Assembly (NCBI GenBank): GCA_018266175.1
Contig: JAFEAY010000027.1
Coordinates: 1 to 44,344 of the forward strand
DNA length: 44,344 bases
Direction of reading: 5' to 3'
DNA from: Candidatus Dependentiae bacterium
GTDB lineage: Bacteria; Babelota; Babeliae; Babelales; RVW-14
How positions within the stretch are numbered: the first letter of the stretch is position 1; each line of letters starts with the position of its first letter. The position numbers were made by a program, and so were the translations under genes. The notes beneath the pieces were generated by a model that was given only the letters and a program-made list of their open reading frames with translations, was not told the origin of the DNA and searched no databases. This document shows, in pieces, positions 3,442-44,344 of this stretch.

Positions 3442-5685
3442 ATGAAAAGGATTTTAGCTATACTATTGGTTTTATGGAGCATCCAGGTAGATGCACAACC
3501 GTGGTTTTGGGGTGATGTAGTGAATTACTTTAAGACTTCAGGCAAAAAGATATATGATATCAATACCAGTGGCGATACAGTTAGAATATTTGATCCTGCC
3601 ACAGGCAAATTAATTATACGTAGCAAATCAGGCTCCGGGGGTTTGCAGATAGACCAGGAAGGTAATGTTACGAACATTCTTACGCAAACATCTTATGGTA
3701 ACGGTAATAGCAGAAATGCCGTATTGCTTCAAAGGCAATCGAGGGGAACTATTAATAACCCTAACGCGGCAACCGTAAGCGGCGATTTGATCGGGGCCTG
3801 GCAAACGCAGGGCAATACCGGTAGTGCATTTCTAAACAGCAATTACCTCTTTATACAAGCTGCTGAAGACTGGAAAGATACCGGTAAACATGCCGGGGCA
3901 AATGTGCGATGGCAGATATATGGCACTTCAAATAATGGAGCCGGCGGTAATGATACTTCTTTAAAAGATAGGCAGCAGTATAGTTCAGCTACCAATACAT
4001 GGGCCTTTATACCCATAGGTGCTTCTTATAATTATAACGGTGGTCTTGGTATAGGTCGACCAGGAAATCTAATTTCAGGAAGGCTTGATATAGGTATAGG
4101 ATTGCCTACAGAAACGGGGGTTACTATAAGAGGTGCAGCAAGTCAAACGGCAAACCTATGGCAGCTGCTCAATAGTGTTGGTAGTACATTAGCGTCTGCA
4201 GATGCGAATGGGAATATAGATGCCCCTAATCTTATAGATAGCGTAACAGTTCGCAATGACAGTTTATTTGAATGGAAGAACGGGGTTAAAACATTTCGTT
4301 ACCTGCATACAGCAGGGGCAGGAGGTGGTATTACATCGCTTAATAGTCTGACAGGCTCGACACAAATATTTGCTACCGGGACAAGCGGATCTGATTTTAA
4401 TATCAGCTCATCAAGCACTACACACACCTTTAATATCCCTACTGCTTCAGGAACAAACAGGGGTGCTTTATCCCCTACTGACTGGACAACATTTAATAAT
4501 AAGCAAGCTGCATTAGGATTTACCCCTGAAAACACAGCGAATAAGGCTACGTCATTTAGCACCATCAATAATACTTTGTTCCCTACGGTTCAGGCCTGTA
4601 GTACTTATGTTGCAAACGCCATATCTGCTTTATCTTCTGTATATGCTCCCATCACACATACCCACGCATGGACTGATATAACCAGTACACCCACAACAAT
4701 AGCAGGATATGGGATTACTGACTATAACAGTTTATGGGATACAAGATTTGCCACTAAACACAGGATTGACAGCGCAAACTATGCCGATACTGCTAAATAC
4801 GCTTCTACCTCGGGTAATGCTATTAACCTGAATGGTCATGCAGATACCTATTTTACGCCTGCTAACGGTACGATTACAGGGGCAACAAAGACAAAAATAA
4901 CCTACGATAGCAAAGGGCTTGTAACGGCTGGTGCGGATGCTACAACAGCAGATATAGCAGCATCTACCAATAAAAACTATGTAACCGATGCGCAATTAGT
5001 AGTTATCGGTAATACTTCAGGCACTAATACAGGTGACCAAACGAGTGTAACGGGCAACGCAGGTACGGCTACTACTTTACAGACAGCACGGAACATTTAT
5101 GGTAATAGTTTTAATGGTTCGGCTGATGTTACAGGTATTATATCATCTACCTATGGTGGTACAGGTAATGGGTTTTTCACAGTATCGGGGCCAGCCACAA
5201 GCGCAAAAACATTTACATTCCCTAATGCTAATGCCACTATAGCCCGTACTGATGCAGGGCAGACTTTTACAGGTGTGCAAACATTCAGTTCATCGCCTGT
5301 TGTTAGCTCCTTTACTAACACGGGTACTCACTCTTTACCAACGGTTACGGGTACTATTGTTGAGTATGTAGAGGGCAATACCACATCTGCATCTACCATC
5401 ACACCAACTGGTGATGCCAGGCAGAACTATTACGATGTAACTGCTTTGGCAACAGCCCCCACATTCGCAGCGCCAAGCGGTACGCCTGCTAACCACAACT
5501 TACTAACCATACGCATAAAAGATAACGGTACAGCAAGAGCGTTAACGTGGAATGCAATATACAGGGCGGGTACTACGGTATCACTCCCTACCACCACCAC
5601 GATAAGCAAGACCATGCACGTACAATTTGAATATAATAGCGCAGATACTAAATGGGATCTGGTAGGCGTAGTAGATGGATTTTAA
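3442..5685 (+). CDS. Tail fibre protein with an N-terminal signal peptide
   Basis: 747 residues. Residues 1-18 (MKRILAILLVLWSIQVDA) look like a Sec signal peptide. The body carries motifs frequent in long tail fibres: TNTGDQTSVTGNAGTATTL, then LQTARNIYGNSFNGSADVTG, then YGGTGNGFFTVSG, and repeated short beta-strand units rich in Thr/Ser/Asn/Gly. The C-terminus (MHVQFEYNSADTKWDLVGV) resembles the end of many fibre proteins. It probably makes the main host-contact fibre. It starts three bases after the preceding fibre gene and is followed immediately by a methyltransferase gene. Confidence 0.8.
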   Translation: MKRILAILLVLWSIQVDAQPWFWGDVVNYFKTSGKKIYDINTSGDTVRIFDPATGKLIIRSKSGSGGLQIDQEGNVTNILTQTSYGNGNSRNAVLLQRQSRGTINNPNAATVSGDLIGAWQTQGNTGSAFLNSNYLFIQAAEDWKDTGKHAGANVRWQIYGTSNNGAGGNDTSLKDRQQYSSATNTWAFIPIGASYNYNGGLGIGRPGNLISGRLDIGIGLPTETGVTIRGAASQTANLWQLLNSVGSTLASADANGNIDAPNLIDSVTVRNDSLFEWKNGVKTFRYLHTAGAGGGITSLNSLTGSTQIFATGTSGSDFNISSSSTTHTFNIPTASGTNRGALSPTDWTTFNNKQAALGFTPENTANKATSFSTINNTLFPTVQACSTYVANAISALSSVYAPITHTHAWTDITSTPTTIAGYGITDYNSLWDTRFATKHRIDSANYADTAKYASTSGNAINLNGHADTYFTPANGTITGATKTKITYDSKGLVTAGADATTADIAASTNKNYVTDAQLVVIGNTSGTNTGDQTSVTGNAGTATTLQTARNIYGNSFNGSADVTGIISSTYGGTGNGFFTVSGPATSAKTFTFPNANATIARTDAGQTFTGVQTFSSSPVVSSFTNTGTHSLPTVTGTIVEYVEGNTTSASTITPTGDARQNYYDVTALATAPTFAAPSGTPANHNLLTIRIKDNGTARALTWNAIYRAGTTVSLPTTTTISKTMHVQFEYNSADTKWDLVGVVDGF

Positions 5686-5687
5686 AT

Positions 5688-6461
5688 ATGGTTGAACTCA
5701 ATAAAATATATAATGAAGACTGCTTAGAGGGTATGAAGCTAATACCTGATAAGAGTATTGATATGATATTGTGCGATCTTCCCTATGGCACAACACAATG
5801 TACATGGGATTCCGTGATACCATTCGATAAACTTTGGGCGCAATACGAGCGAATAATAAAGGATAATGGGGCTATTGTTTTAACAGGCTCACAGCCTTTT
5901 ACAACTGACTTAATAAACAGTAATAGAAAACTTTTTAGGTATGAAATTATATGGGAGAAGACCCAAAAGCTTGGGTTCTATGACGCCAACAGGAGACCAT
6001 TGAAAGGGCATGAAAATATTCTGATTTTTTATAAAAAACAACCTATTTATAACCCTCAAAAATACAATGTAACTGAAAAGTCGAGGGTGAGGAAGCAAAC
6101 AGGATCCCGTTATGTAGGTTATGGGGATAGTAATATAGGAGAATATATTTATGACGGGACGAGATATCCTCACAGCGTTATTAAAATAAGTAATTGGAAT
6201 GGAGCGTTATTTGGAGATAATAGCAAAGCAACAAAACATCCTACCCAAAAGCCTGTGCTTCTCTTTGAGTGGCTTATTAAAACATATACCAACGAAGGAA
6301 TGGTAATACTTGATAATTGCATGGGTAGCGGTACAACAGCAATAGCTTGTATCAATACAGGACGTAATTATATAGGGTTTGAAAATGATGCTAACTATTA
6401 TCATATGGCAATTGACAGAGTACAAAAGCATTTAATAGAAAAGACTGCAGGTATATCATAA
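5688..6461 (+). CDS. DNA adenine/cytosine-N4 methyltransferase (beta class)
   Basis: 257 residues from the ATG at 5688, two bases after the fibre stop. An upstream in-frame start at 5652 would overlap the fibre gene and is unlikely. Catalytic motif IV is seen early as DLPYG (residues 30-34). The SAM-binding motif appears late (LDNCMGSGTTAIA), followed by NYIGFE. This order defines the beta-class N6-adenine/N4-cytosine DNA methyltransferases. A target-recognition region lies between the motifs. No restriction partner is nearby, so it is an orphan enzyme, probably modifying phage DNA late in infection. Its position between fibre genes is odd. Confidence 0.9.
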   Translation: MVELNKIYNEDCLEGMKLIPDKSIDMILCDLPYGTTQCTWDSVIPFDKLWAQYERIIKDNGAIVLTGSQPFTTDLINSNRKLFRYEIIWEKTQKLGFYDANRRPLKGHENILIFYKKQPIYNPQKYNVTEKSRVRKQTGSRYVGYGDSNIGEYIYDGTRYPHSVIKISNWNGALFGDNSKATKHPTQKPVLLFEWLIKTYTNEGMVILDNCMGSGTTAIACINTGRNYIGFENDANYYHMAIDRVQKHLIEKTAGIS

Positions 6462-9112: not shown

Positions 9113-10304
9113 ATAATCCTCCCTTTTCTTCATATTCCCTATTGGCCGCTGTCCTGATACGCTTTGCGTATATCTTAACCGTCTTTTCAGATACAGCCAT
9201 CCATTCAGCTATTGTGGCCTCACTATACCCCAGATCCAGCATAAGCGTAGCGAATGTATGCCTGCCTATGTGGGTGGTTATCTTCTTTTTGATCTTACAG
9301 ATTGCGGCTATCTCTTTCAATGCCTCGTTAACGGTAGGTTCGGCGTAGTTACAGATCAGGTTTTTTTCTTCGATATACTCGATGACTCTCTTGAGTCGTG
9401 GGCTTTTATGGTATGGGAAATATACCGGCTCACCGTTCTTTTTGGCGCTTACCTTTATCCGGTTGGTATCGATCAGCTTTTCCAGCGTGAAGCGCATCCA
9501 GTCACTAAACCGTAGCCCGGAAAGACATTCTATCAGGAAAAAGCACGCAACTACTTCATGCACTCGGCTTTCAAACTTTGGGATTTCATCCCATATAGTA
9601 TCTATCTCTGCAATTGTAAGGTAGCCACGATCAGGGTTCTTATATACCGGTGACCGGTACCCTGCTATTTGGGCCATGTTAAACAAGCCTTTCTCAGAAG
9701 CTTTCTTAAGGATCTGCCTTGTCCGGCTCATGAGTACGGGTAGGGAGGTATCTTTGTCCAGTTCTTTAGCGTTCCATGCTTCGTACCGCTCCATCCACAT
9801 AACATCAATACCGGCAAAGTGAATAGGCATCCCGGAACATTCTTTATCCTGGTAGCGTTTTAGTCTATTTAATATCCCCTGCCATTTTTTTACATTGTTA
9901 TCGCTGTATCGTTTGTTGTTATCTGTTTTGCTCTTTCGGGCCTGCGATATGTAAATAATGAACTGCTGGAAGAAATCTACAAAATCAGATTTACCATTGC
10001 CGTTCAAAGCAGTCTCAATCACCTGGCGGGTGATATCCTGTTTATTGAGTTTTAGTACCTGGAAGTGTTTTATAATATCGTTAACCTGCGCATTGATATC
10101 TGTATTGATAAAGTCAAAACCTATACAGGAGGGTTTAACGCAGTTTCTGGTTTTATCCCAATGCTTCTCTTCTATTTTATAACCGAGTGATCTTTTGAGG
10201 TATTTACGCTGTCCGGATAATAGGATTATGATATATAGATAACCAAAGCTATCTTCGGTTCGCTGCTTTTGAAAGGATAATTTAACGGTAGGGAGTTTGA
10301 CCAC
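9111..10304 (-). CDS. int: Tyrosine-type site-specific integrase
   Basis: 397 residues from a GTG at 10304. The frame is open back to an ATG at 10436, but that adds 44 residues unlike any integrase N-terminus. With the GTG start the protein opens with VKLPTVKLSFQKQ, as Bacteroidetes SAM-like integrases do. The catalytic set is visible: R265 (SGLRFSDW), a Lys in the beta hairpin (VSAKKNG, about 286-289), H345-x-x-R348-H349 (THIGRHTFA) and nucleophile Y379 (KTVKIYAKR). It would integrate and excise the phage at attP, which probably lies just upstream (10447-10467). It is convergent with the lysis genes. Confidence 0.93.
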   Translation of the reverse strand: MVKLPTVKLSFQKQRTEDSFGYLYIIILLSGQRKYLKRSLGYKIEEKHWDKTRNCVKPSCIGFDFINTDINAQVNDIIKHFQVLKLNKQDITRQVIETALNGNGKSDFVDFFQQFIIYISQARKSKTDNNKRYSDNNVKKWQGILNRLKRYQDKECSGMPIHFAGIDVMWMERYEAWNAKELDKDTSLPVLMSRTRQILKKASEKGLFNMAQIAGYRSPVYKNPDRGYLTIAEIDTIWDEIPKFESRVHEVVACFFLIECLSGLRFSDWMRFTLEKLIDTNRIKVSAKKNGEPVYFPYHKSPRLKRVIEYIEEKNLICNYAEPTVNEALKEIAAICKIKKKITTHIGRHTFATLMLDLGYSEATIAEWMAVSEKTVKIYAKRIRTAANREYEEKGGL

Positions 10305-10795: not shown

Positions 10796-11074
10796 ATGAG
10801 TAACTGGAACTGCTGGTACGTAAAATCTGTAAATGATAATGTTGTAGTAACTATTGGTACAACAACGTACAATGACACAGCGATTAACCTTGCAAATAAT
10901 TATCCCTCTTTGTTCCGTGGTGGCACAAGTCAGGACGGGAATAGTATCGCTCTGTGTGCGGATCTGCCAACCGGTACCCCGATTCCTTTGTCGGCTACAG
11001 TAAATGGCACGTCTCAACTTTCTACACAGTGTGAATTGGATATATGGGGTAATCCTCGTCCTCCTAACAAGTAA
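10796..11074 (+). CDS. Small hypothetical protein
   Basis: 92 residues, rich in Thr/Asn/Ser, with three Cys (MSNWNCWYVK, ALCADL, TQCELD). No signal peptide or membrane helix. Not recognised. It is divergent from 10509-10757 and its stop overlaps the ATG of the membrane protein at 11074 (TAATG). The pair is probably co-transcribed in the lysogeny region, so prophage-state expression is possible. Confidence 0.6.
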   Translation: MSNWNCWYVKSVNDNVVVTIGTTTYNDTAINLANNYPSLFRGGTSQDGNSIALCADLPTGTPIPLSATVNGTSQLSTQCELDIWGNPRPPNK

Positions 11075-11739
11075 TGAGACCAAAAACAGTAAATATCATT
11101 CTGATCTTTTTGCTCGTGGTTAATTTTATCACGAGCAAAATTGATTTTGAGCTATTCGACTATAACTGGGATTTCGGGTTGATGTGCATGAGTCTGCTCC
11201 TGGTCCAGGATAAGTATAAAACAGTTCGTTTTTTTAATATCTCTGCCGCCATTGTATTTGCCGGGCTAATGATAGATAAAGCTTTATTTAGGCAATATCA
11301 TCTGGAGACCGATGATTATATTATTTTCAGCATGGCTGCGATAACGGCTTTATATGCAATATTTAAATTCAAAGAAAAGATAGAGCCTGATAATATTCTG
11401 CTACTTATAGTGACACTCGTTAAAATTGTTTCAGAGCTTACTGTTTACGGCAACGACAAGCTTATTAAGTATTATGCATTCCATGATTTCAGGTCTTATT
11501 TTGAAGTGGGTGGTTCTATCGCCAATCTTCTGATGGCTATCTATATTTCCCGGAAACTTGTACCCATTTATTTCATGCCAGTGCTTTATATGGCATTTAT
11601 GGCCGTTGAGCTATTTGAGTATATAGGGGGCAATCCCTATGTATTTGGCATACACGAAGCCGCAATAACCGGTCTGGTATGTTGGGCCCTGATGCTTACA
11701 CGTAAACTTATCCCTCAAGTTCTGATTCAGCGTCCATAA
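11074..11739 (+). CDS. Polytopic membrane protein, possibly lysogenic-conversion gene
   Basis: 221 residues with about six to seven hydrophobic segments (for example VNIILIFLLVVNFI at 6-19, NISAAIVFAGLMI, YIIFSMAAITALYAIF, LLLIVTLVKIV). There are few charged residues between spans and no known motif. It lies in the lysogeny block between integrase and repressor. A superinfection-exclusion or other host-altering role is a reasonable guess, but only that. Its 3' end overlaps the convergent gene 11708-11914 by 32 bases. Confidence 0.65.
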   Translation: MRPKTVNIILIFLLVVNFITSKIDFELFDYNWDFGLMCMSLLLVQDKYKTVRFFNISAAIVFAGLMIDKALFRQYHLETDDYIIFSMAAITALYAIFKFKEKIEPDNILLLIVTLVKIVSELTVYGNDKLIKYYAFHDFRSYFEVGGSIANLLMAIYISRKLVPIYFMPVLYMAFMAVELFEYIGGNPYVFGIHEAAITGLVCWALMLTRKLIPQVLIQRP

Positions 11740-11976: not shown

Positions 11977-12372
11977 TCAGTTGCCATTTTTCTTTTTACG
12001 CTCTCTCAATTCCTTTAGATATTTAGCTTTCTCTTTTATCTCTAATTGTATTCTCAGCTCCTCCTCATCAAGTTCGGCAAGTGTTTTCCCGGAATAATCA
12101 TCTATAAATTGTTGAAGATCAGCAAAGAAGCCTGTCTTTTTTGGCTGTTTGATATTATCATTTTTATTATTTGCGTCACTAACAACTTCGGTTGGATTTT
12201 CGCCAAACACTTGTTGGATTTTGTCCAGCAGTTTGTCGGGTAATTCTTTTGAATTATTTACTAAGTCGCTGATATACGATCTGTTATAACCAACTTTTTC
12301 AGCAAAATCGGTCTGACTCGTTATCTTTTTACGCCGCTTAAGCGAATGTATATATTCTCCTAAAACGTTCAT
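11977..12372 (-). CDS. XRE-family repressor (lysogeny regulator)
   Basis: 131 residues from the ATG at 12372. An ATG 13 codons upstream would lie in the operator region and adds a poorly conserved leader. The N-terminus is a helix-turn-helix: LGEYIHSLKRRKKITSQTDF then AEKVGYNRSYISDLVNNSKE, about residues 3-45. A basic linker and a long charged, coiled-coil-like C-terminus (LAELDEEELRIQLEIKEKAK) follow. There is no peptidase S24 domain, so classical RecA-driven self-cleavage is not expected. It is divergent from the early operon across 12373-12542, which carries the inverted repeats listed below. Confidence 0.85.
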   Translation of the reverse strand: MNVLGEYIHSLKRRKKITSQTDFAEKVGYNRSYISDLVNNSKELPDKLLDKIQQVFGENPTEVVSDANNKNDNIKQPKKTGFFADLQQFIDDYSGKTLAELDEEELRIQLEIKEKAKYLKELRERKKKNGN

Positions 12373-12405
12373 TATCAATATATTTTTATATAGCGTAATA
12401 AAATA

Positions 12406-12442
12406 TTCCAAACTTTACCAAAAAATGTTTGGAAAACAAACA
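12406..12442. promoter_or_regulatory. Operator region with two overlapping inverted repeats
   Basis: TTCCAAAC (12406-12413) and GTTTGGAA (12427-12434) form an exact 8-bp inverted repeat with a 13-base spacer. TGTTTG (12426-12431) and CAAACA (12437-12442) form a second inverted repeat. The half-sites overlap the -33 box of the rightward early promoter and lie about 35-70 bases upstream of the repressor start. This is where a repressor would bind to control both directions. Confidence 0.6.
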
Positions 12443-13036: not shown

Positions 13037-13399
13037 ATGAATTACAACCAAATCAAATCGTTTGAAGATGCCTGTAAGGCGCTTAACATGACCACCGATC
13101 TGCCGGATTTCAGTATGCTATCTGCAGCCGAAAGGCAGGCAATGACTGACCATTATAAGCTCACGGTAATTACCAGGGCCTTGAATGGTGGGTGGACACC
13201 TGACTGGAATAACTCTGGTGAATACAAATACTACCCATGGTTCTACTGCAAAGACGGCTTTTCGTTCTTCCTCGTCGACTCCCACTTCACCGGTACCGGC
13301 GTCGGTTCCCGCCTTTGCTTCCGTAATGAAGAGATAGCTGAATACGCAGCAACCCAATTCATCGATCTGTACAAATCATACTTCACCATTAATCAATAA
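13037..13399 (+). CDS. DGR target protein 1 (VR1)
   Basis: 120 residues. The N-terminal part (NYNQIKSFEDACKALN) and the middle (GGWTPDWNNSGEYKYYPWF) recur in the other DGR targets. Residues 74-92 are encoded by VR1 (GFSFFLVDSHFTGTGVGSR). A conserved tail of 28 residues (LCFRNEEIAEYAATQF and on) follows. Relative to the TR, VR1 has 11 changes, all at template adenines. The scaffold looks like the C-type-lectin-related targets common in Bacteroidota elements, though the fold cannot be proved by eye. No signal peptide. The start follows the leader ATCAATAAACTGTT shared with other cassette genes. Confidence 0.88.
   Translation: MNYNQIKSFEDACKALNMTTDLPDFSMLSAAERQAMTDHYKLTVITRALNGGWTPDWNNSGEYKYYPWFYCKDGFSFFLVDSHFTGTGVGSRLCFRNEEIAEYAATQFIDLYKSYFTINQ
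13256..13312 (+). repeat. DGR variable repeat VR1
   Basis: 57 bp aligned without gaps to the TR at 15252-15308. Codon changes from TR to VR1: AAC to TTC, AAC to CTC, TAC to TCC, AAC to CAC, TAC to TTC, AAT to GGT, AAC to GGC. All 11 substitutions lie at template A; none of the 42 non-A positions differs. Confidence 0.93.
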
Positions 13400-13412
13400 T
13401 CAATAATCCGTT

Positions 13413-13789
13413 ATGGAATTCAACCAGATAAAATCATTCGAAGAAGCCTGTGCGGCTCTCAACATCAGCAACGCACTGCCTGATTTCTCAGAAGCACCTG
13501 ATGCAATGCAAGCTCATCTGAAAGCAGCATATAAACTGCCAATCATCATCGCAGCTATCAATAACGGCTGGATGCCTAATTGGAAAAACACAGATGAACG
13601 TAAATGGATGCCTTGGTTCTATATGAACGATGAAAACGCCGAGGGTGGCTTTTCGTTCGCCGCGTCGTCTTCAACTGCACCCTTACCTTCGTCGGTTCCC
13701 GCCTTTGCTTCCTGAGCGAAGAAGCTGCAAAATACGCTGTAGAACAATTCAAGGATCTGTATAAAGATTATTTCACCATTCCTGCATAA
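13413..13789 (+). pseudogene. DGR target protein 2, frameshifted inside VR2
   Basis: Paralogue of target 1 (EFNQIKSFEEACAALN, then NNGWMPNWKNTDERKWMPWF). VR2 has 56 bases where the other VRs have 57; the missing base is at one of the second pair of template adenines. As read, the frame runs to a stop at 13715 and gives a 100-residue product with a foreign tail (FSFAASSSTAPLP). Restoring one base recovers VGSRLCFLSEEAAKYAVEQF and an in-frame TAA at 13789. The intact form would be about 125 residues. The deletion could be a retrohoming error, a minority variant caught by the assembly, or a sequencing error. Confidence 0.85.
13647..13702 (+). repeat. DGR variable repeat VR2 (one-base deletion)
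   Basis: Begins with GGCTTTTCGTTC and ends with GTCGGTTCCCGC like the TR. AAC to GCC; the second AAC is reduced to GC; then GAC to GTC, TAC to TTC, AAC unchanged, TAC to TGC, AAT to CTT, AAC to TTC. All substitutions and the deletion map to template adenines. Confidence 0.9.
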
Positions 13790-13792
13790 AAA

Positions 13793-13821
13793 TATAGCCC
13801 CTGTGTAGGGCAGGGGCTATA
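13793..13821. other. Strong hairpin between DGR genes
   Basis: TATAGCCCCTG (13793-13803), loop TGTAGGG, CAGGGGCTATA (13811-13821): eleven perfect pairs. No T-run follows on the plus strand; on the minus strand the stem is followed by TTTTTATG. It separates VR2 from the following gene and could be an attenuator, an RNA-processing site or a minus-strand terminator. Confidence 0.7.
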
Positions 13822-13838
13822 AACAATCAATAACTGTT

Positions 13839-14225
13839 ATGAACTCAAAGATAGAAAATTTTTCAAAACCAATAAGCGATACAGTCGCTGAACTAATAAT
13901 AGCCTGCGGCTATTCAGAACACATCGCTTTTGAAGATACACTGCATTATAATAGTAAATGCGGCACTAAAAAGCTGAAGTTCTCAAAAGATGGCTTCATA
14001 GTATACCAGGTTCTTTTCGAACAGGAAGAAGACCGCGGAGCTGAATGGAAGACGATGTTCACTTGTTCTATCAATTACATGATAAAGGATTGTGACATGT
14101 CTAGCCTTCTGCAAACGGTTGGTGCTATTGATATCCGGCAAACAAAAGAATTCAGAGAATATCTCAACGCGTTCAAACACGGTGGTAATACGGGCTATTT
14201 CGGTCTGCACCGTGCCAGGGCTTAA
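13839..14225 (+). CDS. Unknown protein inside the DGR cassette
   Basis: 128 residues, MNSKIENFSKPISDTVAELI, with mixed alpha/beta composition and a central charged region (FEQEEDRGAEWKTMFTC). It does not show the basic four-helix look of Avd accessory proteins and lacks a variable repeat. It uses the same leader (ATCAATAACTGTT directly before ATG) as targets 1 and 2, so it belongs to the cassette by arrangement. It might be an accessory or inhibitor of the DGR, or a target that lost its VR. No family recognised. Confidence 0.65.
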   Translation: MNSKIENFSKPISDTVAELIIACGYSEHIAFEDTLHYNSKCGTKKLKFSKDGFIVYQVLFEQEEDRGAEWKTMFTCSINYMIKDCDMSSLLQTVGAIDIRQTKEFREYLNAFKHGGNTGYFGLHRARA

Positions 14226-14250
14226 ATCTTCATCATTAAATAGATAACCA

Positions 14251-14730
14251 ATGTCAACAACTGTTGAAATAGATAAAGACGCTCTGCTGAAAGCGCATAA
14301 GAGTGGCACCGCCGCTGAAAAGAAACTGCTGGAAAAGCTGCATGGTAAAGATATGTTTCAGCCTGACCTGATGCAGACAGTTAAGTCAATCGCAGACATA
14401 TACAGACTTGCCGGTGTCAATGCCCGAAGCTATGCACTACCAAAAACCGCAACTGCCGATCAGATAGCCGAGAACGCCTTTCGTAAGCTGCGTTTGGCGG
14501 CGCAAATAATGAACCAGGGCTGGAAACCTGATTGGAGTAACGATAACCAGTACAAGTATTACCCATATTTCGTTTGGGATAATAAGAAAAAGGGCTTTTC
14601 GTTCGCCCACGTCGGCTGCCTCTACACCCTTACCAGCGTCGGTTCCCGCCTTTGCTTCCGTACCAGTGCACTGGCTGAATTCTTTGGTAAGACCTTCCTT
14701 TCTGAATACAACGATTTCTTAATTAACTAA
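14251..14730 (+). CDS. DGR target protein 3 (VR3)
   Basis: 159 residues. It has an N-terminal extension (VEIDKDALLKAHKSGTAAEK) shared in outline with target 4 but absent from 1 and 2. The common core follows (QGWKPDWSNDNQYKYYPYF), then VR3 at residues 115-133 (GFSFAHVGCLYTLTSVGSR) and the conserved tail (LCFRTSALAEFFGKTF). VR3 carries 10 changes from the TR, all at adenines. No signal peptide. Role presumed to be ligand binding through the variable surface. Confidence 0.88.
   Translation: MSTTVEIDKDALLKAHKSGTAAEKKLLEKLHGKDMFQPDLMQTVKSIADIYRLAGVNARSYALPKTATADQIAENAFRKLRLAAQIMNQGWKPDWSNDNQYKYYPYFVWDNKKKGFSFAHVGCLYTLTSVGSRLCFRTSALAEFFGKTFLSEYNDFLIN
14593..14649 (+). repeat. DGR variable repeat VR3
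   Basis: 57 bp, gap-free against the TR. AAC to GCC, AAC to CAC, GAC to GGC, TAC to TGC, AAC to CTC, AAT to CTT, AAC to AGC; the second TAC is unchanged. Ten substitutions, all at template A. Confidence 0.93.
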
Positions 14731-14741
14731 AATCAATAACC

Positions 14742-15200
14742 GTGGGAAAAGTATTAGAACTCACAGTAGATAAAGCGTTGAACGCTTATAAAAAAGGTTC
14801 TGAAAATGACAGGACTTTGCTAGAAAACCTGTATGGTAAAGATGTTTTCAGCATGAAGATCACAGACCGCGTACAGTCTTTTGAAGATGCATGCACAGTT
14901 TTAGGGTTAGATCCGGATGCTTTTGAAGATACCGGTCTTGCAGACGATACAGTGGCGTATGAAAAGCTGAAAGTGATCGCGAAGGCACTTAACGAGGGAT
15001 GGACACCTGATTGGGATAACTCTAATGAATATAAGTACTATCCTTATTTCAAAATGTGTGGTGGCTTTTCGTTCTTCCGCGTCGGCTCCTACTACACCCT
15101 TACCTGCGTCGGTTCCCGCCTTTGCTTCCGTAGCAGGGAATTGGCAGAACACGCAGCGAAAATAGGCTTCGATCTCTACAAACAATTATACACTATATAA
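14742..15200 (+). CDS. DGR target protein 4 (VR4), adjacent to the TR
   Basis: 152 residues from a GTG at 14742, placed right after ATCAATAACC, the leader seen before other cassette genes. The N-terminal extension (LTVDKALNAYKKGSENDRTL) resembles target 3. The core (EGWTPDWDNSNEYKYYPYF) precedes VR4 at residues 108-126 (GFSFFRVGSYYTLTCVGSR) and the conserved tail (LCFRSRELAEHAAKIGFDLY). It is 51 bases upstream of the TR. VR4 has 11 changes from the TR, all at adenines. Confidence 0.9.
   Translation: MGKVLELTVDKALNAYKKGSENDRTLLENLYGKDVFSMKITDRVQSFEDACTVLGLDPDAFEDTGLADDTVAYEKLKVIAKALNEGWTPDWDNSNEYKYYPYFKMCGGFSFFRVGSYYTLTCVGSRLCFRSRELAEHAAKIGFDLYKQLYTI
15063..15119 (+). repeat. DGR variable repeat VR4
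   Basis: 57 bp, gap-free against the TR. AAC to TTC, AAC to CGC, GAC to GGC, TAC to TCC, AAC to TAC, AAT to CTT, AAC to TGC; the second TAC is unchanged. Eleven substitutions, all at template A. Confidence 0.93.
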
Positions 15201-15251
15201 TCATTACACGGTGGTGCATCAGATGTTCCGAAGTTGGCTTTCTGGCTCTGT

Positions 15252-15308
15252 GGCTTTTCGTTCAACAACGTCGACTACAACTACACCAATACCAACGTCG
15301 GTTCCCGC
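15252..15308 (+). repeat. DGR template repeat (TR)
   Basis: 57 bp framed by GGCTTTTCGTTC and GTCGGTTCCCGC, with a middle of AAC, TAC, GAC and AAT codons: 15 adenines, the hallmark of a DGR template. It matches all four VRs at every non-A position. After it, TR and VRs part: AAATGCTTTAG in the TR against CTTTGCTTCCG or CTTTGCTTCCT in the VRs, a difference comparable to the IMH*/IMH pair of other DGRs. Confidence 0.93.
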
Positions 15309-15381
15309 AAATGCTTTAGAAATACTGATGCAGACCATGCCAACAAGGCAAAAGATAACATTCAACAACAGGGCGTTAGTA

Positions 15382-15399
15382 TCCCGGCTTCTGCCGGGA
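15382..15399 (+). other. GC hairpin in the TR spacer
   Basis: TCCCGGC (15382-15388), loop TTCT, GCCGGGA (15393-15399): seven perfect pairs with a tetraloop, no T-run after it. It lies between TR and RT start and is probably a structural part of the template RNA. Confidence 0.7.
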
Positions 15400-15426
15400 G
15401 AAAGCGACCTCTCTGAAGCAAAGGAT

Positions 15427-16386
15427 ATGAAACGTAAGAACAATTTATTTCAACAGATTATCAGCCTGGATAACCTTCGGTTAGCAGATACCGAGGCCCA
15501 GAAAGGTAAGGCAAAACAGCGCGGAGTTATAAAGCACAATAAGAACAGAGAGCAAAACCTGGTCGATTTGCATGAGACCTTAAAGAACAAAACTTATCGC
15601 ACAAGCTCTTACGATGTATTCACAATACAGGAACCTAAAGAAAGAACCGTGTACAGATTGCCTTATTACCCGGACCGTATAGTACACCATGCGATCATCA
15701 GGATTTTAGAGCCCATATTTGTTTCTGTATATACCGCAGATACATATAGTTGCATCAAGGGTAGAGGGCTACACCTTGCAGTTAAGAAACTGCAAAAAGC
15801 CTTAAAGGATAAAGAGAACACAACCTATTGCCTGAAATTGGATATCAGGAAGTTCTATGAAAATGTTGATCACGATATTCTCAAAGCATTGCTGCGCAGG
15901 AAATTCAAAGATGCTGACTTATTAATCATACTCGATGAGATCGTTGATAGCGCCAAAGGATTACCAATTGGCAACTATATGAGTCAATACCTGGCAAATT
16001 TCTACCTCAGTTATTTTGACCATTGGCTTAAAGAGGATAAGAGAGTTAAATATTATTTCCGCTACTGCGATGATGTAGTGTTACTCGCAGCCGAGAAACC
16101 TTACCTGCACGCTTTACTTGCAGAAGTGCGGGCTTATCTCCGGGATCATTTGAAGCTTACAGTAAAAGACAATTATCAAATATTTCCGGTTGATAGCAGA
16201 GGCATAGACTTTTTAGGGTATCGGTTTTTTCACACCCATACATTATTAAGAAAGTCTATCAAACGCAATTTGGCCAAGGCTATTCTTTACAACGATAACA
16301 AACAATCTATTGCCTCCCTGATGGGTTGGGCGAAACACTGCAACTCTATTCATCTGCTGAAAACTTTGAATGAACAAGCTGCATAA
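15427..16386 (+). CDS. DGR reverse transcriptase
   Basis: 319 residues from the ATG at 15427, 118 bases after the TR. The RT palm motifs are all visible: KERTVYRLPYYPDRIVHHAI (fingers), KLDIRKFYENVDH with catalytic D139, the DGR-type motif 4 LPIGNYMSQYLANFYL (residues 179-194, SQ in place of the QG of group II introns), and YRYCDD-type FRYCDDVVLLA with D215/D216. A thumb region (GIDFLGYRFF) follows. There is no maturase or endonuclease domain. It copies the TR RNA into A-mutagenised cDNA, which replaces VRs by retrohoming. No recognisable Avd partner is encoded next to it. Confidence 0.95.
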   Translation: MKRKNNLFQQIISLDNLRLADTEAQKGKAKQRGVIKHNKNREQNLVDLHETLKNKTYRTSSYDVFTIQEPKERTVYRLPYYPDRIVHHAIIRILEPIFVSVYTADTYSCIKGRGLHLAVKKLQKALKDKENTTYCLKLDIRKFYENVDHDILKALLRRKFKDADLLIILDEIVDSAKGLPIGNYMSQYLANFYLSYFDHWLKEDKRVKYYFRYCDDVVLLAAEKPYLHALLAEVRAYLRDHLKLTVKDNYQIFPVDSRGIDFLGYRFFHTHTLLRKSIKRNLAKAILYNDNKQSIASLMGWAKHCNSIHLLKTLNEQAA

Positions 16387-16413: not shown

Positions 16414-16797
16414 ATGACACTAACATTGACCGTAACAGCGGAAACACCACAAGAGATGGCTTCCGTTCTGCAAACCCTGGGCGGTAATACTTTAGTTACC
16501 GTTCAGCAAACAACCAACACAGGAACAAAGCCAAAAGCTGAAAAGCCTGCCAAAGAACAGCCAGAAGCTAAAACTGCGACAGCTGACACTTCTAACGTAG
16601 CAGAGAAGGAACCAAAGGCAGATAAAAGCGCAGATGAAGTAACGATTGAACAAGTGCGCCAGGCTGCTACCAAACAGATACAGGCGGGTAAACGAGATGC
16701 CGTTGCCGCATTACTCGCCGAATGTGGAGCAACTATGCTGACCCAACTAAAGCCCGCGCAATTCGCCTATTTCCTTGACAAAGCAAACGCCCTGTAA
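16414..16797 (+). CDS. Phage protein of unknown function with Lys/Glu-rich linker
   Basis: 127 residues in three parts: a small beta-rich start (MTLTLTVTAETPQEMASVLQ), a low-complexity Lys/Glu/Ala/Pro linker (about 35-75), and a helical C-terminal domain (EQVRQAATKQIQAGKRDAVA, then LLAECGATMLTQL) reminiscent of small helical domains seen in phage proteins near recombination genes. Not recognised as a named family. It begins the replication/recombination block and stops one base before the next ATG. Confidence 0.7.
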   Translation: MTLTLTVTAETPQEMASVLQTLGGNTLVTVQQTTNTGTKPKAEKPAKEQPEAKTATADTSNVAEKEPKADKSADEVTIEQVRQAATKQIQAGKRDAVAALLAECGATMLTQLKPAQFAYFLDKANAL

Positions 16798-16798
16798 T

Positions 16799-17962
16799 AT
16801 GCCCGGCTCTCATGCAATATTATCTCCTTCTGGGGCTTCCCGCTGGCTGGCGTGTACACCGTCAGCCAGGCTGGAAGAACAGTTCCCGGACAAAAGCGGT
16901 GAAGCCGCTGCAGAAGGTACACACGCGCACAGTCTTGCTGAATTGCTATTAAGACATCAAACAGGCAGTGTTACCAAGGCAGCATTTAATAAGCTGCACG
17001 GTAAACTAAAGGAAAGCAGCTACTACGACGCTGCTATGCAAGATCATTGCGAGAATTATGCGGCCTATGTGCTGGAACAGTTCAACCTCGCTAAAAGCCA
17101 TACTTCAGATGCGCTGTTATTCCTGGAGCAGAAATTAGACCTGACAGAATATGTACCTGAAGGTTTTGGAACAGGTGATGCTATCATCATTGCAGATAAA
17201 GTCATGAACATCATCGACCTGAAATACGGTAAGGGTGTGCCCGTTACCGCGGTGGAGAACAGGCAGATGATGCTATACGCATTAGGCGCTTACCATCTGT
17301 ATAGCCTGCTCTACAACGTAGAGCATGTGAAGATGACCATCTTCCAGCCTCGTATTGATAATATCTCCGAATGGCAGATAGATGTTACAGAACTGCTGGA
17401 CTGGTCTGAACGGGAACTGAAGCCCAAAGCAAAGCTGGCTTATGATGGTGAAGGTGAATACGCACCGGGTAGCCATTGCAGGTTTTGCAAAGCCAGGGCG
17501 GTATGTAAGGCGAATGCAGATTTTAACCTGCAATTAGCTGAGTATGATTTTAAACAGCCTGCATTACTGGAAGATGGTGAAGTTGCGCATATCCTTGACC
17601 GTGCAGACACTTTTTCCCAATGGCTGAAAGATGTACAGGAACATGCGTTGAATGAGGCCGTCAACAATGGTAAGAAATGGCCGGGCTATAAACTCGTAGA
17701 AGGCAGAAGCAACCGCAAATACACAGATCCTAAGTTGGTATTATCAACCCTAACCGGTTCCGGTTATCCGGCTGAGAATATCAGCAAGACCGAGCCGCTC
17801 GGAATTACTGAGATGGAGCGAGTATTGGGTAAAACTATATTCTCCGATCTGCTGAACAACCTGGTAGCTAAACCGCCCGGTAAACCTACGCTTGCACCGC
17901 TGTCTGATAAACGGCCTGAGTATAACAGCGCAGAAAGTGCAGCAAATGATTTCTCTGAATAA
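16799..17962 (+). CDS. DUF2800 protein, RecB/Cas4-like nuclease
   Basis: 387 residues from the ATG at 16799, one base after the previous stop; a TTG at 16775 is an unlikely start. The opening (MPGSHAILSPSGASRWLACT) is the signature of DUF2800, phage proteins related to the PD-(D/E)XK nucleases. Candidate catalytic positions are in TGDAIIIAD and NIIDLKYGKG (D and K). A Cys cluster (HCRFCKARAVC, near residues 224-234) fits the Fe-S cluster of Cas4/AddB-like nucleases. It probably acts in phage DNA recombination with the DUF2815 protein encoded next. Confidence 0.88.
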   Translation: MPGSHAILSPSGASRWLACTPSARLEEQFPDKSGEAAAEGTHAHSLAELLLRHQTGSVTKAAFNKLHGKLKESSYYDAAMQDHCENYAAYVLEQFNLAKSHTSDALLFLEQKLDLTEYVPEGFGTGDAIIIADKVMNIIDLKYGKGVPVTAVENRQMMLYALGAYHLYSLLYNVEHVKMTIFQPRIDNISEWQIDVTELLDWSERELKPKAKLAYDGEGEYAPGSHCRFCKARAVCKANADFNLQLAEYDFKQPALLEDGEVAHILDRADTFSQWLKDVQEHALNEAVNNGKKWPGYKLVEGRSNRKYTDPKLVLSTLTGSGYPAENISKTEPLGITEMERVLGKTIFSDLLNNLVAKPPGKPTLAPLSDKRPEYNSAESAANDFSE

Positions 17963-17989
17963 CAATTGTAAACTTTTAAACAAAATAGA

Positions 17990-18547
17990 ATGAGTACGCA
18001 AACAACTCCCGCACCTACTAAGGTGATCACAGGTAAAGTAAGATTCAGTTACCTGCATGTCTTTGAACCTAAAGCTATTGATGGCAGTTCAGACGCTAAA
18101 TATTCCGTTTCTCTTATCATACCGAAGTCTGATACAGAGACGATCGAAAAAGTAAAAGCTGCTATCAAGTCAGCAACAGAAGCAGGTAAGGCCACATTTG
18201 GCAATAAGATTCCTGCAAATCTAAAAACTCCGTTGCGTGATGGCGATGAAGAGCGCCCGGATGATCCTGCTTATAAAGACGCCTATTTCATCAACGCCAA
18301 CAGCAAGAACAAACCGGGGCTGGTTGATAAAGACCGTCAGCCGATCATCGATAAAGATGAAATGTACAGCGGCTGTTATGGCCGTGCGAGTGTAAACTTT
18401 TACGCGTATAACACTAATGGTAATAAAGGCATTGCTGCAGGCCTGAACCACCTGCAGAAGCTTGCAGACGGCGAACCTCTGGGCAATATCACGCGTGCAG
18501 AAGATGACTTTGCCGATGATTTCCAGGACGATGATCTTTTAGGGTAA
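17990..18547 (+). CDS. DUF2815 single-stranded DNA-binding protein
   Basis: 185 residues. It matches the DUF2815 pattern: an opening VITGKVRFSYLHVFEPKAID, then KYSVSLIIPKSD, a central insertion with DGDEERPDDPAYKDAYFINA, and YSGCYGRASVNFYAYN. It ends in an acidic tail (EDDFADDFQDDDLLG), as in OB-fold ssDNA-binding proteins such as T7 gp2.5, where the tail contacts polymerase and helicase. It follows DUF2800 by 27 bases, the usual gene pair in siphophage replication modules. Confidence 0.9.
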   Translation: MSTQTTPAPTKVITGKVRFSYLHVFEPKAIDGSSDAKYSVSLIIPKSDTETIEKVKAAIKSATEAGKATFGNKIPANLKTPLRDGDEERPDDPAYKDAYFINANSKNKPGLVDKDRQPIIDKDEMYSGCYGRASVNFYAYNTNGNKGIAAGLNHLQKLADGEPLGNITRAEDDFADDFQDDDLLG

Positions 18548-18577
18548 GAGGGCATAAATGGTTAAAACAAAGAAGTA

Positions 18578-18593
18578 GCGGCTTTCGCGCCGC
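18578..18593. other. Short GC hairpin before the tRNA-like element
   Basis: GCGGC (18578-18582), loop TTTCGC, GCCGC (18589-18593). It lies between the DUF2815 gene and the tRNA-like sequence; no T-run follows. It may be a processing or stability element. Confidence 0.45.
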
Positions 18594-18599
18594 ACTTAT

Positions 18600-18666
18600 G
18601 GACGGATGGCTGAGTGGCTAGGCACCGGGTTCCCGGATTACGCAGGTTCGACCCCTGCTCCGTTCG
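18600..18666 (+). tRNA. tRNA-like element lacking a normal anticodon arm
   Basis: Acceptor GGACGGA pairs with TCCGTTC (seven pairs, one G-T). D-arm GCT/GGC with a loop containing GAGTGG. T-arm GCAGG, loop TTCGACC, CCTGC is canonical. Between D-arm and T-arm there are only 18 bases (ACCGGGTTCCCGGATTAC) against the usual 22-23, and no five-pair/seven-base anticodon arm can be folded; only a short CCGG/CCGG stem forms. CCA is not encoded. Either a decayed tRNA or a tRNA mimic; not a credible translating tRNA as it stands. Confidence 0.5.
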
Positions 18667-18681
18667 CAAATAATATATTTT

Positions 18682-19155
18682 ATGGCAACAAGTACAAGAA
18701 AAAAAAACACGGTGCCTGAAAAACCAAAGCCCCGTGAATATCATAATGCGTCTTTTGATCTGACGCACTTCATCAACAAAGTGGCAAGTGGTAAAGCCCT
18801 GACTGATATCACCGATGAAGACTTTGACGAGACATACGAAGAGGCTATTAAACGCCTGATTAATGAGATGGATGATTTCTATAAAGCCGCTTGGGACGCG
18901 AAGGATGATGCAGAATTGAAAAATGGCGAACTGGAAAAAGACCTGGAAAGCTTAAGTGCAGATGTGGAGAGGCTCGACGCTTATACAGCAGGCATCAGCG
19001 ACATATCTACCATGGTAGGCGAACTGAAATTTGAAACCGATAACCTGCTGGATGCGCACACAATGGAGCTAGTAACTGAGCTGATGCAGAAAGTACCACC
19101 GGTAAAGCTGATAGAAATATTGCAAAACACATTAAAAGGAATTGATCTTTTATGA
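18682..19155 (+). CDS. Acidic coiled-coil protein of unknown function
   Basis: 157 residues. A basic N-terminus (MATSTRKKNTVPEKPKPREY) is followed by a largely helical, acidic middle with heptad-like spacing (AELKNGELEKDLESLSADVE). No known motif. It lies in the replication block and overlaps the next start by four bases (ATGA). It may be a structural or regulatory partner of the polymerase module; nothing specific is seen. Confidence 0.7.
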   Translation: MATSTRKKNTVPEKPKPREYHNASFDLTHFINKVASGKALTDITDEDFDETYEEAIKRLINEMDDFYKAAWDAKDDAELKNGELEKDLESLSADVERLDAYTAGISDISTMVGELKFETDNLLDAHTMELVTELMQKVPPVKLIEILQNTLKGIDLL

Positions 19156-19337
19156 GCCAGCAAATCACGGATAACACGCCAATGCCTTTTGGCAGACATA
19201 TCGGTAAGCCGATGATAGAAGTACCGGCTAAATACCTGCTTTGGCTTTTGAATGAAGGCTGTACCCATCAGGGCGTAAGAGAATACATTGTTTATAACCT
19301 GGATATCCTTAAAAAGGAAGCAGGAGAAAATAGATAA
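19152..19337 (+). CDS. DUF3820-like small protein
   Basis: 61 residues with the compact pattern of DUF3820: MPFGRHIGKPMIEVPAKYLL, then WLLNEG and a helical end. Proteins of this family are common next to exonuclease or polymerase genes, but their biochemical role is not established. It sits between the coiled-coil protein and the DNA polymerase, ending directly at the polymerase ATG with no gap, so the genes are very probably co-translated. Confidence 0.8.
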   Translation: MSQQITDNTPMPFGRHIGKPMIEVPAKYLLWLLNEGCTHQGVREYIVYNLDILKKEAGENR

Positions 19338-21290
19338 ATGCGTAACCTGTCCATAGATATTGAAACTTATAGCAGCACAGACCTGAGCAATTGCGGGGTG
19401 TACAAGTATGTCGAAGCGCCTGATTTTGAAATACTGTTATTCGCCTATGCGTTCGACAATGAGCCTGTACAGCTGGTAGACCTTGCAAGCGGTGAGCAAT
19501 TGCCGGCTGATGTGTTAGCAGCTTTGACAGACCCGAACGTGAAGAAAACAGCGCATAACGCCAACTTCGAACGTACCTGTATCGCTGCTTTCTTCGGCAT
19601 TACGCTTTTAGCAGAGCAGTGGGAATGCACTATGGTTAAATCGGCTATGCTTGGTTTGCCTATGTCTTTGGAGCATGTTGCCAAGGCGCTAAGGCTGGAG
19701 CAGGAGAAAGGTAACGGTAAAGCTTTGATACGATTCTTCTCACTGCCTTGCAAGCCTACCAAGGCCAACGGCATGAGATACCGTAACCTGCCACATCATG
19801 AGCCTGCTAAGTGGCAGGATTTCAGGAACTACTGTGTGCAGGACGTTGTCGTGGAGCGCAGCATACGTAATAAGATATCGTTTTTCACTATACCGCCACA
19901 GGAAAAAAAGCTTTGGGAGCTTGACCAGCGCATTAATGACGAAGGTGTTTTGCTGGATCCTGTATTTATAGGCAAAGCTATTGAGATAGACACCGTACAG
20001 CGTACAAAGCTGACGGAAGAAGCTATCAGGCTTACCGGGCTGGATAACCCGAATAGCGCTGCGCAGTTAAAGCAATGGATAGGTGATGAGACAGGTGGCA
20101 ACGTGGCCAGCCTTACCAAAGAAGTGGTGCCTTTATTATTAGAACAAGTCGGATCTGACGATGTAAAGAGGGTTCTGCAGATCAGGCAGGAACTTGCAAA
20201 GACCTCTGTTAAGAAGTATGAAGCGATGCTGGATTACATATGCCTGGATAACCGGGTTAGGGGGTTGATACAGTTCTATGGCGCAGGCCGTACAGGCCGC
20301 TTTGCAGGACGTGGCATACAAGTGCACAACCTGCCAAGGATGGAGGACGATTTTATTAAAAGCCTGGACGTTGCAAGATCATTGGTGCTGATGGGTGATG
20401 CAGAGATAGTAGAGATGATCTTCGGCAATGTGCCGGATACGCTATCACAGCTCATACGCACGGCGTTTATAGCTCCGGAGGGTAGCAGGTTCATCGTGTC
20501 TGACTTCAGCGCCATTGAAGCCCGTGTCATTGCATGGCTTGCGGGTGAAGTGTGGCGGTTAGGGGTATTCCGCACACACGGTAAGATCTATGAAGCGTCT
20601 GCCGCCCAGATGTTCAAAGTACCGATAGAAAGTATTAAGAAAGGTTCACCGCTAAGGCAGAAAGGTAAAGTGGCAGAGCTGGCATTAGGTTACCAGGGTG
20701 GCCCCAATGCACTTATTAAGATGGGAGCCTTAAAGATGGGGTTGGTAGAAGAGGAATTACCAAAGCTGGTAAAGATGTGGCGCAACGCCAATAGGAATAT
20801 TGTGTCTTACTGGGATGCTGTGGGCAATGCGGCTATCGAAGCTGTAGACAGTGGCGAACCTCAATTGATAAAGCACGGTATCAGGTTCTTTGTCGAAAAG
20901 GATATCCTGTTTATAGAGCTACCAAGTAAACGCAGGTTGGCTTATATGTCACCTCGCTTAGTGCCCGGTAAATATGGCCCTGTGCTTGTATTCATGGGTA
21001 TGAACCAGACGACAAAGCAATGGGGCTTACAGGAAACTTACGGCGGTAAGCTGGTAGAGAACATCGTGCAGGCTGTTGCCCGCGATTGTCTTGCCGAAGC
21101 AATGCTGCGGCTGGATGCCGCAGGCTATAAACTGGTGATGCATGTGCATGATGAGGTAGTGCTGGAAATGCCTTATGGTAAAGGTAGCACGGAAGAAGTA
21201 AATCATATCATGAGCCAGCCAATGCCCTGGGCAAAGGATCTACCGTTAACAGCTGATAGTTATGAAACCGTGTATTATAAAAAAGATTAA
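19338..21290 (+). CDS. Family A DNA polymerase with 3'-5' exonuclease domain
   Basis: 650 residues, the length of phage PolA-type replicases. The exonuclease domain is N-terminal (LSIDIETYS with D7 and E9; later TAHNANFERTC, and DFRNYCVQDVVVERSI as ExoIII-like). The polymerase domain shows motif A (VSDFSAIEARVIAWLAGE), the fingers region with KGSPLRQKGKVAELALGYQG, and motif C (VMHVHDEVVLEMP). There is no 5' nuclease domain. It would replicate the phage genome with the VirE-type primase/helicase and the DUF2815 ssDNA-binding protein encoded around it. Confidence 0.96.
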   Translation: MRNLSIDIETYSSTDLSNCGVYKYVEAPDFEILLFAYAFDNEPVQLVDLASGEQLPADVLAALTDPNVKKTAHNANFERTCIAAFFGITLLAEQWECTMVKSAMLGLPMSLEHVAKALRLEQEKGNGKALIRFFSLPCKPTKANGMRYRNLPHHEPAKWQDFRNYCVQDVVVERSIRNKISFFTIPPQEKKLWELDQRINDEGVLLDPVFIGKAIEIDTVQRTKLTEEAIRLTGLDNPNSAAQLKQWIGDETGGNVASLTKEVVPLLLEQVGSDDVKRVLQIRQELAKTSVKKYEAMLDYICLDNRVRGLIQFYGAGRTGRFAGRGIQVHNLPRMEDDFIKSLDVARSLVLMGDAEIVEMIFGNVPDTLSQLIRTAFIAPEGSRFIVSDFSAIEARVIAWLAGEVWRLGVFRTHGKIYEASAAQMFKVPIESIKKGSPLRQKGKVAELALGYQGGPNALIKMGALKMGLVEEELPKLVKMWRNANRNIVSYWDAVGNAAIEAVDSGEPQLIKHGIRFFVEKDILFIELPSKRRLAYMSPRLVPGKYGPVLVFMGMNQTTKQWGLQETYGGKLVENIVQAVARDCLAEAMLRLDAAGYKLVMHVHDEVVLEMPYGKGSTEEVNHIMSQPMPWAKDLPLTADSYETVYYKKD

Positions 21291-43620: not shown

Positions 43621-44344
43621 ATGGCTGATAAGATCACGTATTTCCCCCCGATAAACAATATCAGGATGGCGCCTTACAACAAGGCCCTGCCAACTGCTTT
43701 TCATTATCACCAGTTCGATAAAGCTCCGTTCATACAACAGCAGCAGCGTTTCAACCTGCAACAGTACTATTGTCAAAAGGTGCAATTCACAGATCCTCAG
43801 AACTTTTGGTTCTATAGCAACGGCGTAGTAACCGTTACCCTATGTTCTGTAGATCCCTATACCGGCAAGCTTACTACGGTTGCAACTCTTAGCCATATAG
43901 ATTTTGCCCCGCCGATCACTTCTTATCAATTCCCCTATACGGCAGATAACGGCCAGACCTACGATCTGGATGTGCACGGGTACCTGCATAAGTTCATTTC
44001 AGGCACGCATCCTGAGGGCTATTACTGCTTTTTCGTACACGTACACTACCAGGATCCCGATAATGAGGAGGATGTAGCCGATGAGGACTATATCAGTGAG
44101 GTAATGTGGCTGCGTGCCAGCCATCCCAAAACGGTCCGTATCCGTTACCGCAATTCTTATGACGCTTTCAATATCATGTGGGAGCGTTTCGGCATGTCCT
44201 TTTTCCTGCGTTTTGATAGCAACTGGATGACTATGGAGCCTGCCAGCGATGATGTTGTATTCTCTGACCAGGATGATAATGTCCGCAGGCTATACGGTAA
44301 TCCCTACAGGGTATTCAAGCTTAATATCGGCGGTAATTACGGTG
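43621..44344 (+). CDS. Large tail/baseplate protein, N-terminal part (continues at position 2)
   Basis: Opens with MADKITYFPPINNIRMAPYN directly after late promoter copy 5 and runs off the window end. The frame continues at base 2 to the stop at 1276 once the 125-base overlap is merged, for 624 residues in total. The N-terminal part is strand-rich and aromatic (FWFYSNGVVTVTLCSVDPYT; YYCFFVHVHYQDPDNEEDVA). No signal peptide. Baseplate or tail-tip role inferred from order. Confidence 0.72.
   Translation, partial: MADKITYFPPINNIRMAPYNKALPTAFHYHQFDKAPFIQQQQRFNLQQYYCQKVQFTDPQNFWFYSNGVVTVTLCSVDPYTGKLTTVATLSHIDFAPPITSYQFPYTADNGQTYDLDVHGYLHKFISGTHPEGYYCFFVHVHYQDPDNEEDVADEDYISEVMWLRASHPKTVRIRYRNSYDAFNIMWERFGMSFFLRFDSNWMTMEPASDDVVFSDQDDNVRRLYGNPYRVFKLNIGGNYG
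44220..44344. repeat. Terminal direct repeat, right copy (circular-map overlap)
   Basis: Exact copy of bases 1-125. See the left copy. Subtracting it leaves a circle of 44,219 bp. Confidence 0.9.

Follow-up and report, generated by a model that had tools for sequence, protein, structure and literature searches.

Introduction

Phage diversity-generating retroelements (DGRs) are commonly read as tail-fibre tropism switches. The DGR of phage BPP-1 (brt, avd, mtd) has one tail target, Mtd, and the protein Avd. Here we describe a DGR in the 44,344-nucleotide contig JAFEAY010000027.1 (the window, meaning the whole stretch of DNA that was analysed). It resembles that of BPP-1 in that its template repeat (TR) and variable repeats (VRs) differ from one another at adenines only, its reverse transcriptase (RT) is related (33% identity to Brt; blastp E 8e-51), and the 3' ends of TR and VR differ. 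It is unlike BPP-1 in having four short targets among early genes, no Avd and no hairpin signal after the VR. That the element is a phage DGR is practically certain, and retrohoming into its four target genes is very probable. The whole is best explained, with good confidence, as a phage DGR with four early-operon targets that are probably not virion proteins and for which the binding of a variable host factor is the leading guess.

Multi-VR DGRs have been known since 2012. The DiGReF survey lists 155 DGRs, including 19 with two VRs, 2 with three and 3 with four (PMC3521204), and up to eight similar targets are cited in PMC10743442. The multi-VR DGRs of DiGReF and those of Treponema denticola and Stenotrophomonas (PMC10743442) resemble the window in having several paralogous targets per template, but they are mostly bacterial loci, whereas the window has its targets in a phage early operon. 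The preliminary description of this DNA called four targets uncommon. This holds for DGRs at large (3 of 155) but much less within the present RT lineage, where 60 of 62 loci with short targets have two or more. The DGR of Quimbyvirus has its second target in a methyltransferase/tRNA-ligase region, and phage DGR targets known earlier were structural (PMC8008677). The window element is ordinary in kind; its targets are unusual in being early proteins only, and in their number.

Results and Discussion

Adenine-specific variation at four repeats

The repeats and the RT are listed below, with positions in the window.

15252..15308, plus strand: TR, 57 nt with 15 adenines; the mutated tract is TR positions 13-44 (15264-15295)
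13256..13312, plus strand: VR1, 11 substitutions relative to TR, each at a template A
13647..13702, plus strand: VR2, 56 nt, 10 substitutions and 1 deletion, each at a template A
14593..14649, plus strand: VR3, 10 substitutions, each at a template A
15063..15119, plus strand: VR4, 11 substitutions, each at a template A
15309..15324, plus strand: 3' flank of TR, AAATGCTTTAGAAATA, resembling the IMH* variant of the initiation of mutagenic homing (IMH) site, with fixed differences from the CTTTGCTTCC that follows each VR
15309..15426, plus strand: spacer between TR and RT, 118 nt; relatives have spacers of similar length
15427..16386, plus strand: DGR-type RT, 319 amino acids (aa), with motifs IGNYMSQ and YCDD

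These repeats were detected without any adenine criterion. All 32 substitutions in the gap-free VR1, VR3 and VR4 lie on template adenines, and no non-A template position differs in any of the four VRs. If mismatches were placed at random, the probability that all fall on A would be about 7e-9 for VR1, 7e-8 for VR3 and 7e-9 for VR4. Alignments of VR2 that are free of non-A mismatches always contain 10 substitutions and one deletion, which can be placed at A13, A14, A16 or A17 of TR. The preliminary description is thus upheld in its coordinates for one 57-bp TR beside an RT and four VRs in separate genes, in its 32 adenine substitutions (11, 10 and 11) and in the lack of non-A differences; its 9-10 substitutions plus a deletion at adenines in VR2 become 10 plus one. 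BLAST of TR against all 30 contigs of the genome bin finds five places, TR and the four VRs, and no further match elsewhere in the phage genome or the bin. Together with the A-only changes and the kinship to Brt, this supports the earlier reading of a phage DGR in which one template serves four paralogous targets.

The RT matches RVT_1 and phrog_1423, and its motif 4, IGNYMSQ, fits the (I/V/L)GxxxSQ pattern that marks DGRs (PMC3521204). It had been called DGR-type from the letters, and sequence and profile searches agree: Brt and phrog_1423 match it far better than do the group II, Drt3a and retron models, all of which stay far below their cut-offs in these comparisons.

All four VRs have CTTTGCTTCC where TR has AAATGCTTTA, an IMH/IMH* pattern, and the fixed TR/VR differences start at the 3' end, where the preliminary description had cut the repeat. 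In relatives, most VRs carry one fixed base at the template adenines of the same place. The difference between AAATGCTTTA and CTTTGCTTCC is the IMH/IMH* arrangement, which would mark the point where copying stops. A hairpin directly 3' of the VR is a feature of BPP-1-type DGRs, but is not universal. There is no signal for one after 206 VRs (mean z -0.12), and the TR-RT spacers of the window and its relatives show no unusual folding on average.

As can be read from the sequence, template adenines are confined to codon positions 1 and 2 of AAC, AAT, TAC, GAC and ACC. Since each of these codons has C or T as its third base, no stop can arise by substitution; it takes an indel, as in VR2, to destroy a target. 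Identical substitutions are shared by VR1 and VR4 (five) and by VR3 and VR4 (five), so the VRs are not fully independent draws. Across the lineage, two VRs of the same genome match at 39% of A sites, where about 30% would be expected; the excess may come from selection, base bias or common ancestry.

Target genes and their location in the phage genome

The four targets are small genes of one family.

13037..13399, plus strand: target 1, 120 aa, phrog_11581 family
13413..13715, plus strand: target 2, phrog_11581 family, cut short at 100 aa by a frameshift in its VR
14251..14730, plus strand: target 3, 159 aa, phrog_11581 family
14742..15200, plus strand: target 4, 152 aa, GTG start, phrog_11581 family

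The phrog_11581 profile, which is annotated as function unknown, matches targets 1-4 with E-values of 4e-29, 8.9e-17, 7.8e-19 and 1.3e-27, and none of the four matches a Pfam model. The VRs lie in coding genes, three of them intact open reading frames (ORFs) and the fourth frameshifted inside the VR. The family alignment and a structure model place the VR close to the C-terminal end, with a helix after it. VR2 is the sole VR with an indel among 238 in the lineage, and its deletion may reflect an error of the DGR or of the assembly, or a null allele.

By its ends the window is a complete phage genome on a circular contig, and it encodes integrase, repressor, replication, terminase, portal, head and tail genes. 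The cassette stands between a divergent repressor plus two small genes on one side and genes for DUF2800, a single-stranded DNA-binding protein (SSB) and polA on the other; the early genes around it are on one strand, mostly with short gaps. All four targets are in this early operon and none is in the tail module. This position, and the lack of a tail target in the genome, make it most likely that the targets act inside the cell and are not virion parts, and we consider it rather probable that they are non-virion early proteins.

Other features of the genome are as follows.

1-125 and 44220-44344: 125-bp direct terminal repeat
11977..12411, minus strand: helix-turn-helix (HTH) repressor-like gene, divergent from the cassette-bearing early operon
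13839..14225, plus strand: orphan gene of 128 aa between targets 2 and 3, not BPP-1 Avd (bAvd)
16793..21290, plus strand: downstream early genes for a DUF2800/PD-(D/E)XK protein, an Enc34-type SSB and a family A DNA polymerase

A strong hairpin (11-12 bp) at 13793-13821, just past target 2, is a minus-strand terminator-like site. Targets 1, 2 and 4 (13037, 13413 and 14742) and the orphan gene (13839) each have a leader near AATCAATAACTGTT just ahead of the start codon; this repeated leader looks as if it had been duplicated together with the genes.

An accessory protein is usual for DGRs but not universal. In 111 of 135 relatives a gene of about 100 aa (phrog_19665, no Pfam model) directly follows the RT, for example at 10947-11243 in locus L085, and its product is a candidate alternative accessory protein for DGRs of the lineage. 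Some relatives are without it, among them L066, L101 and L126, whose replication modules have parts in common with that of the window. The orphan gene has no relatives among the collected loci; it might substitute for the accessory gene or be a diverged version of it, though nothing supports this.

The host suggested by the genome bin was rejected, and the phage is probably mis-binned, because the ribosomal RNA of the bin lacks the three Bacteroidota probe sites that were checked, base composition differs between bin and window (GC 0.34-0.41 vs 0.436, and a poor tetranucleotide match), and the relatives of the bin have genomes of 0.8-1.5 Mb. Relatives of the phage are in Bacteroidota.

Related cassettes

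A search with the RT found 80 loci in viral contigs and 62 more in genomes, mostly of Bacteroidota and a few of Bacillota. An adenine-biased repeat scan that allowed gaps found 238 VRs in 130 of these loci. The scan admitted few non-A mismatches, so the A-bias in the relatives is in part a product of the search; free of this bias are the window itself and pairs of near-identical relatives. Three such pairs with the same TR are informative.

L027 and L031: VR differences at 12/19 A, 0/59 non-A and 0/150 flank positions
L036 and L037: VR differences at 13/19 A and 0/56 non-A positions
L067 and L068: VR differences at 6/19 A and 0/60 non-A positions

In one VR, L035 departs from L036 or L037 at 2 non-A positions. 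Near-identical relatives on separate contigs also reveal that the VRs within one phage change independently. It had been argued that four differing VRs show repeated retrohoming. This is reasonable but indirect for the window phage, and the near-identical relatives provide the better evidence.

The DGRs of Bacteroidota phages and prophages that have two or three short targets in tandem (L005-L144) are like the window in their RT, the TR beside it, the target family and the gene order; they differ in usually having two targets and the accessory gene of about 100 aa after the RT, where the window has four and none. Among de-replicated short-target loci with at least 4 kb upstream (n=62), 51 have two VRs, seven have three, two have four and two have one, so four targets are the top of the range in the RT lineage. 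Short and long targets were separated by an ORF length cut-off, and L106 and L140 may hold truncated long targets.

Short-type targets are located in the early or DNA-metabolism region in the window and about 80 relatives. Upstream of the relatives' short-target cassettes are RecT, Mu Gam, primase, exonuclease, helicase, methyltransferase and integrase families, and downstream are methyltransferase, helicase, primase, terminase and portal families. The 25 commonest families on each side, out of 150 and 166, include no tail family. BLAST of TR over the whole records of relatives missed known VRs in L018 and L071 and is too insensitive to exclude tail targets. In L090 (Dyadobacter) three targets (5632-6051, 9255-9782 and 18394-18921) are spread over a 13 kb early region, one of them directly behind the repressor. 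Loci with a single target of about 440 aa are located in the tail region, and this target matches the tail family phrog_5302. On the RT tree the short and long kinds of target need 5 changes, against about 19 when shuffled.

Members of the short family are also present in described phages. The second VR gene of LoVEphage BI-TP1 (62208-62792), in which one template also serves a tail gene, is one (E 1.7e-29) and has methyltransferases and one tRNA ligase around it; on its split RT and gene content, we take LoVEphage to be a phage of the Quimbyvirus kind. Such Quimby-like phages have one tail target, one short target and a split RT, unlike the window with four short targets and no tail target. 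In the isolate BT-TP2 (L174, positions 40343-40468 and 117-243), a phage of Bacteroides thetaiotaomicron, one template serves a VR in a 2262-aa tail protein ahead of the RT and a VR in an unannotated 183-aa short-family protein. The gene for the latter comes next after a repressor/HTH pair, and was probably missed in annotation because it crosses the start of the record. In the crAss-like Buchavirus phages cr52_1 (L175/L176) and cr56_1 (L177/L178), a tail-adjacent template also matches a distant short-family gene of 134-136 aa. BT-TP2 and Buchavirus thus resemble the window in that their TR serves a VR in an early protein of the short family, but they have a tail target as well and only a single short target.

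Structure of the short target

The AlphaFold2 model of target 4 (77 sequences; predicted local distance difference test, pLDDT, 90.5) is mostly helical with one β-hairpin. The VR occupies the second strand and the following loop, and two helices come after it. The model has no fold match in PDB (best E 0.66), and among viral models its good matches are only to uncharacterised phage proteins. Searches of PDB sequences with profiles of the short and long targets gave nothing usable. The long-target model is poor (pLDDT 55.8) and its fold search is meaningless. When the profiles of short targets and long tail targets are compared, 28 residues align, which are the VR itself only, and the VR segment of the short-family protein of BT-TP2 ends in GVRLAF, like that of its tail target. 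Judged from these alignments, this reads as one VR segment displayed on two scaffolds. An assignment of the short target to the C-type lectins by fold was tried and rejected, there being no PDB match; the short scaffold may still be a reduced lectin. The targets of the window show no evident membrane segment, their maximum 19-aa hydropathy being 0.75-1.02.

Proposed mechanism and alternative explanations

In the mechanism we propose, TR RNA would be copied by the RT with template adenines misread, and the mutated complementary DNA would replace the VR of any of the four targets, next to the fixed 3' IMH. TR itself would be spared because its 3' end differs (IMH*). The short, stand-alone early proteins would then display the VR segment inside the cell, where their most likely job would be to bind a variable host factor, for example a defence protein. 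That they bind host factors for counter-defence or host takeover is a guess, to which we give somewhat less than an even chance. Broader still, and doubtful, is the proposal that Bacteroidota phages widely hypermutate a small intracellular early-protein family (four copies here and no tail target) as fast-evolving binders in defence or takeover, with the VR on a scaffold other than the standard C-type lectin.

Several observations weigh against these proposals. The 1-nt deletion in VR2 shifts the frame, so that target 2 stops at 13715 where the homologous frame runs to about 13789. No phmmer match to bAvd and no profile match to the accessory gene of the lineage are present in the window. Ongoing mutagenic retrohoming is apparent between near-identical relatives; in the window phage itself, present activity may at most be presumed from them. 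When and where the targets are expressed is deduced from gene order alone. Counter-defence binding is at most suggested by the neighbourhood, and no target matches a PADLOC model.

One alternative, of negligible probability, is that the element is no DGR but a defence RT, a group II intron RT or a retron beside paralogues that are alike through gene conversion. Group II, Drt3a and UG models also hit the RT, but its NCBIfam scores are far under the cut-offs (118.7 against 300 for group II; 88.6 against 200 for Drt3a) and its PADLOC scores are generic RT matches; gene conversion does not explain adenine-only changes, and this pattern, recurring in more than 100 relatives, already refutes the idea. 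A DGR that diversified its targets in the past and is now dead for want of an accessory protein, with VR2 as the first casualty, is an unlikely state of affairs. The missing accessory and Avd homologues, and the uniqueness of the VR2 indel among the 238 VRs, are what decay would predict. Against it, the RT is full length with intact motifs, no VR of the window has a non-A change, unlike the old VRs reported in PMC12386605, and the accessory-less L066, L101 and L126 also have adenine-biased VRs.

The other alternatives concern the role of the targets. The small proteins could be minor virion proteins, such as tail-tip receptor binders, encoded away from the tail genes, as in a classical phage DGR. 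Characterised phage DGR targets do bind receptors (PMC8144416, PMC10743442), the same RT lineage has the long targets that match phrog_5302, and the templates of BT-TP2 and Buchavirus also serve a tail protein. However, short and tail targets have the VR alone in common, the short targets are among early genes (behind a repressor/cro pair in the window phage, L090 and BT-TP2), and they lie a long way from the tail target in LoVEphage and the crAss-like phages; we regard a virion role as improbable. Superinfection exclusion or lysogen immunity, in which a lysogen would be marked by its own variable early protein, likewise has a low probability. It would agree with the position of targets first or near-first behind the repressor in the window phage, L090 and BT-TP2 and with the integrase of the phage, and the template that BT-TP2 shares with its tail protein could let both proteins sample one loop repertoire; the lack of an evident membrane segment in the targets of the window speaks against it. 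Our preferred reading remains that of early proteins that probably stay out of the virion.

Significance

The early location, the lack of a tail target, the IMH/IMH* boundary, the absent accessory gene and the broken VR2 gene were not part of the preliminary description. The widespread short targets of the early region, which in the window are the only ones of the DGR, suggest programmed hypermutation inside the infected cell. Their family links Quimbyvirus, whose non-structural phage target is the sole published one that we found (PMC8008677), to dozens of unannotated cassettes. Since the cultured phages BT-TP2 and LoVEphage carry the family, the question is testable.

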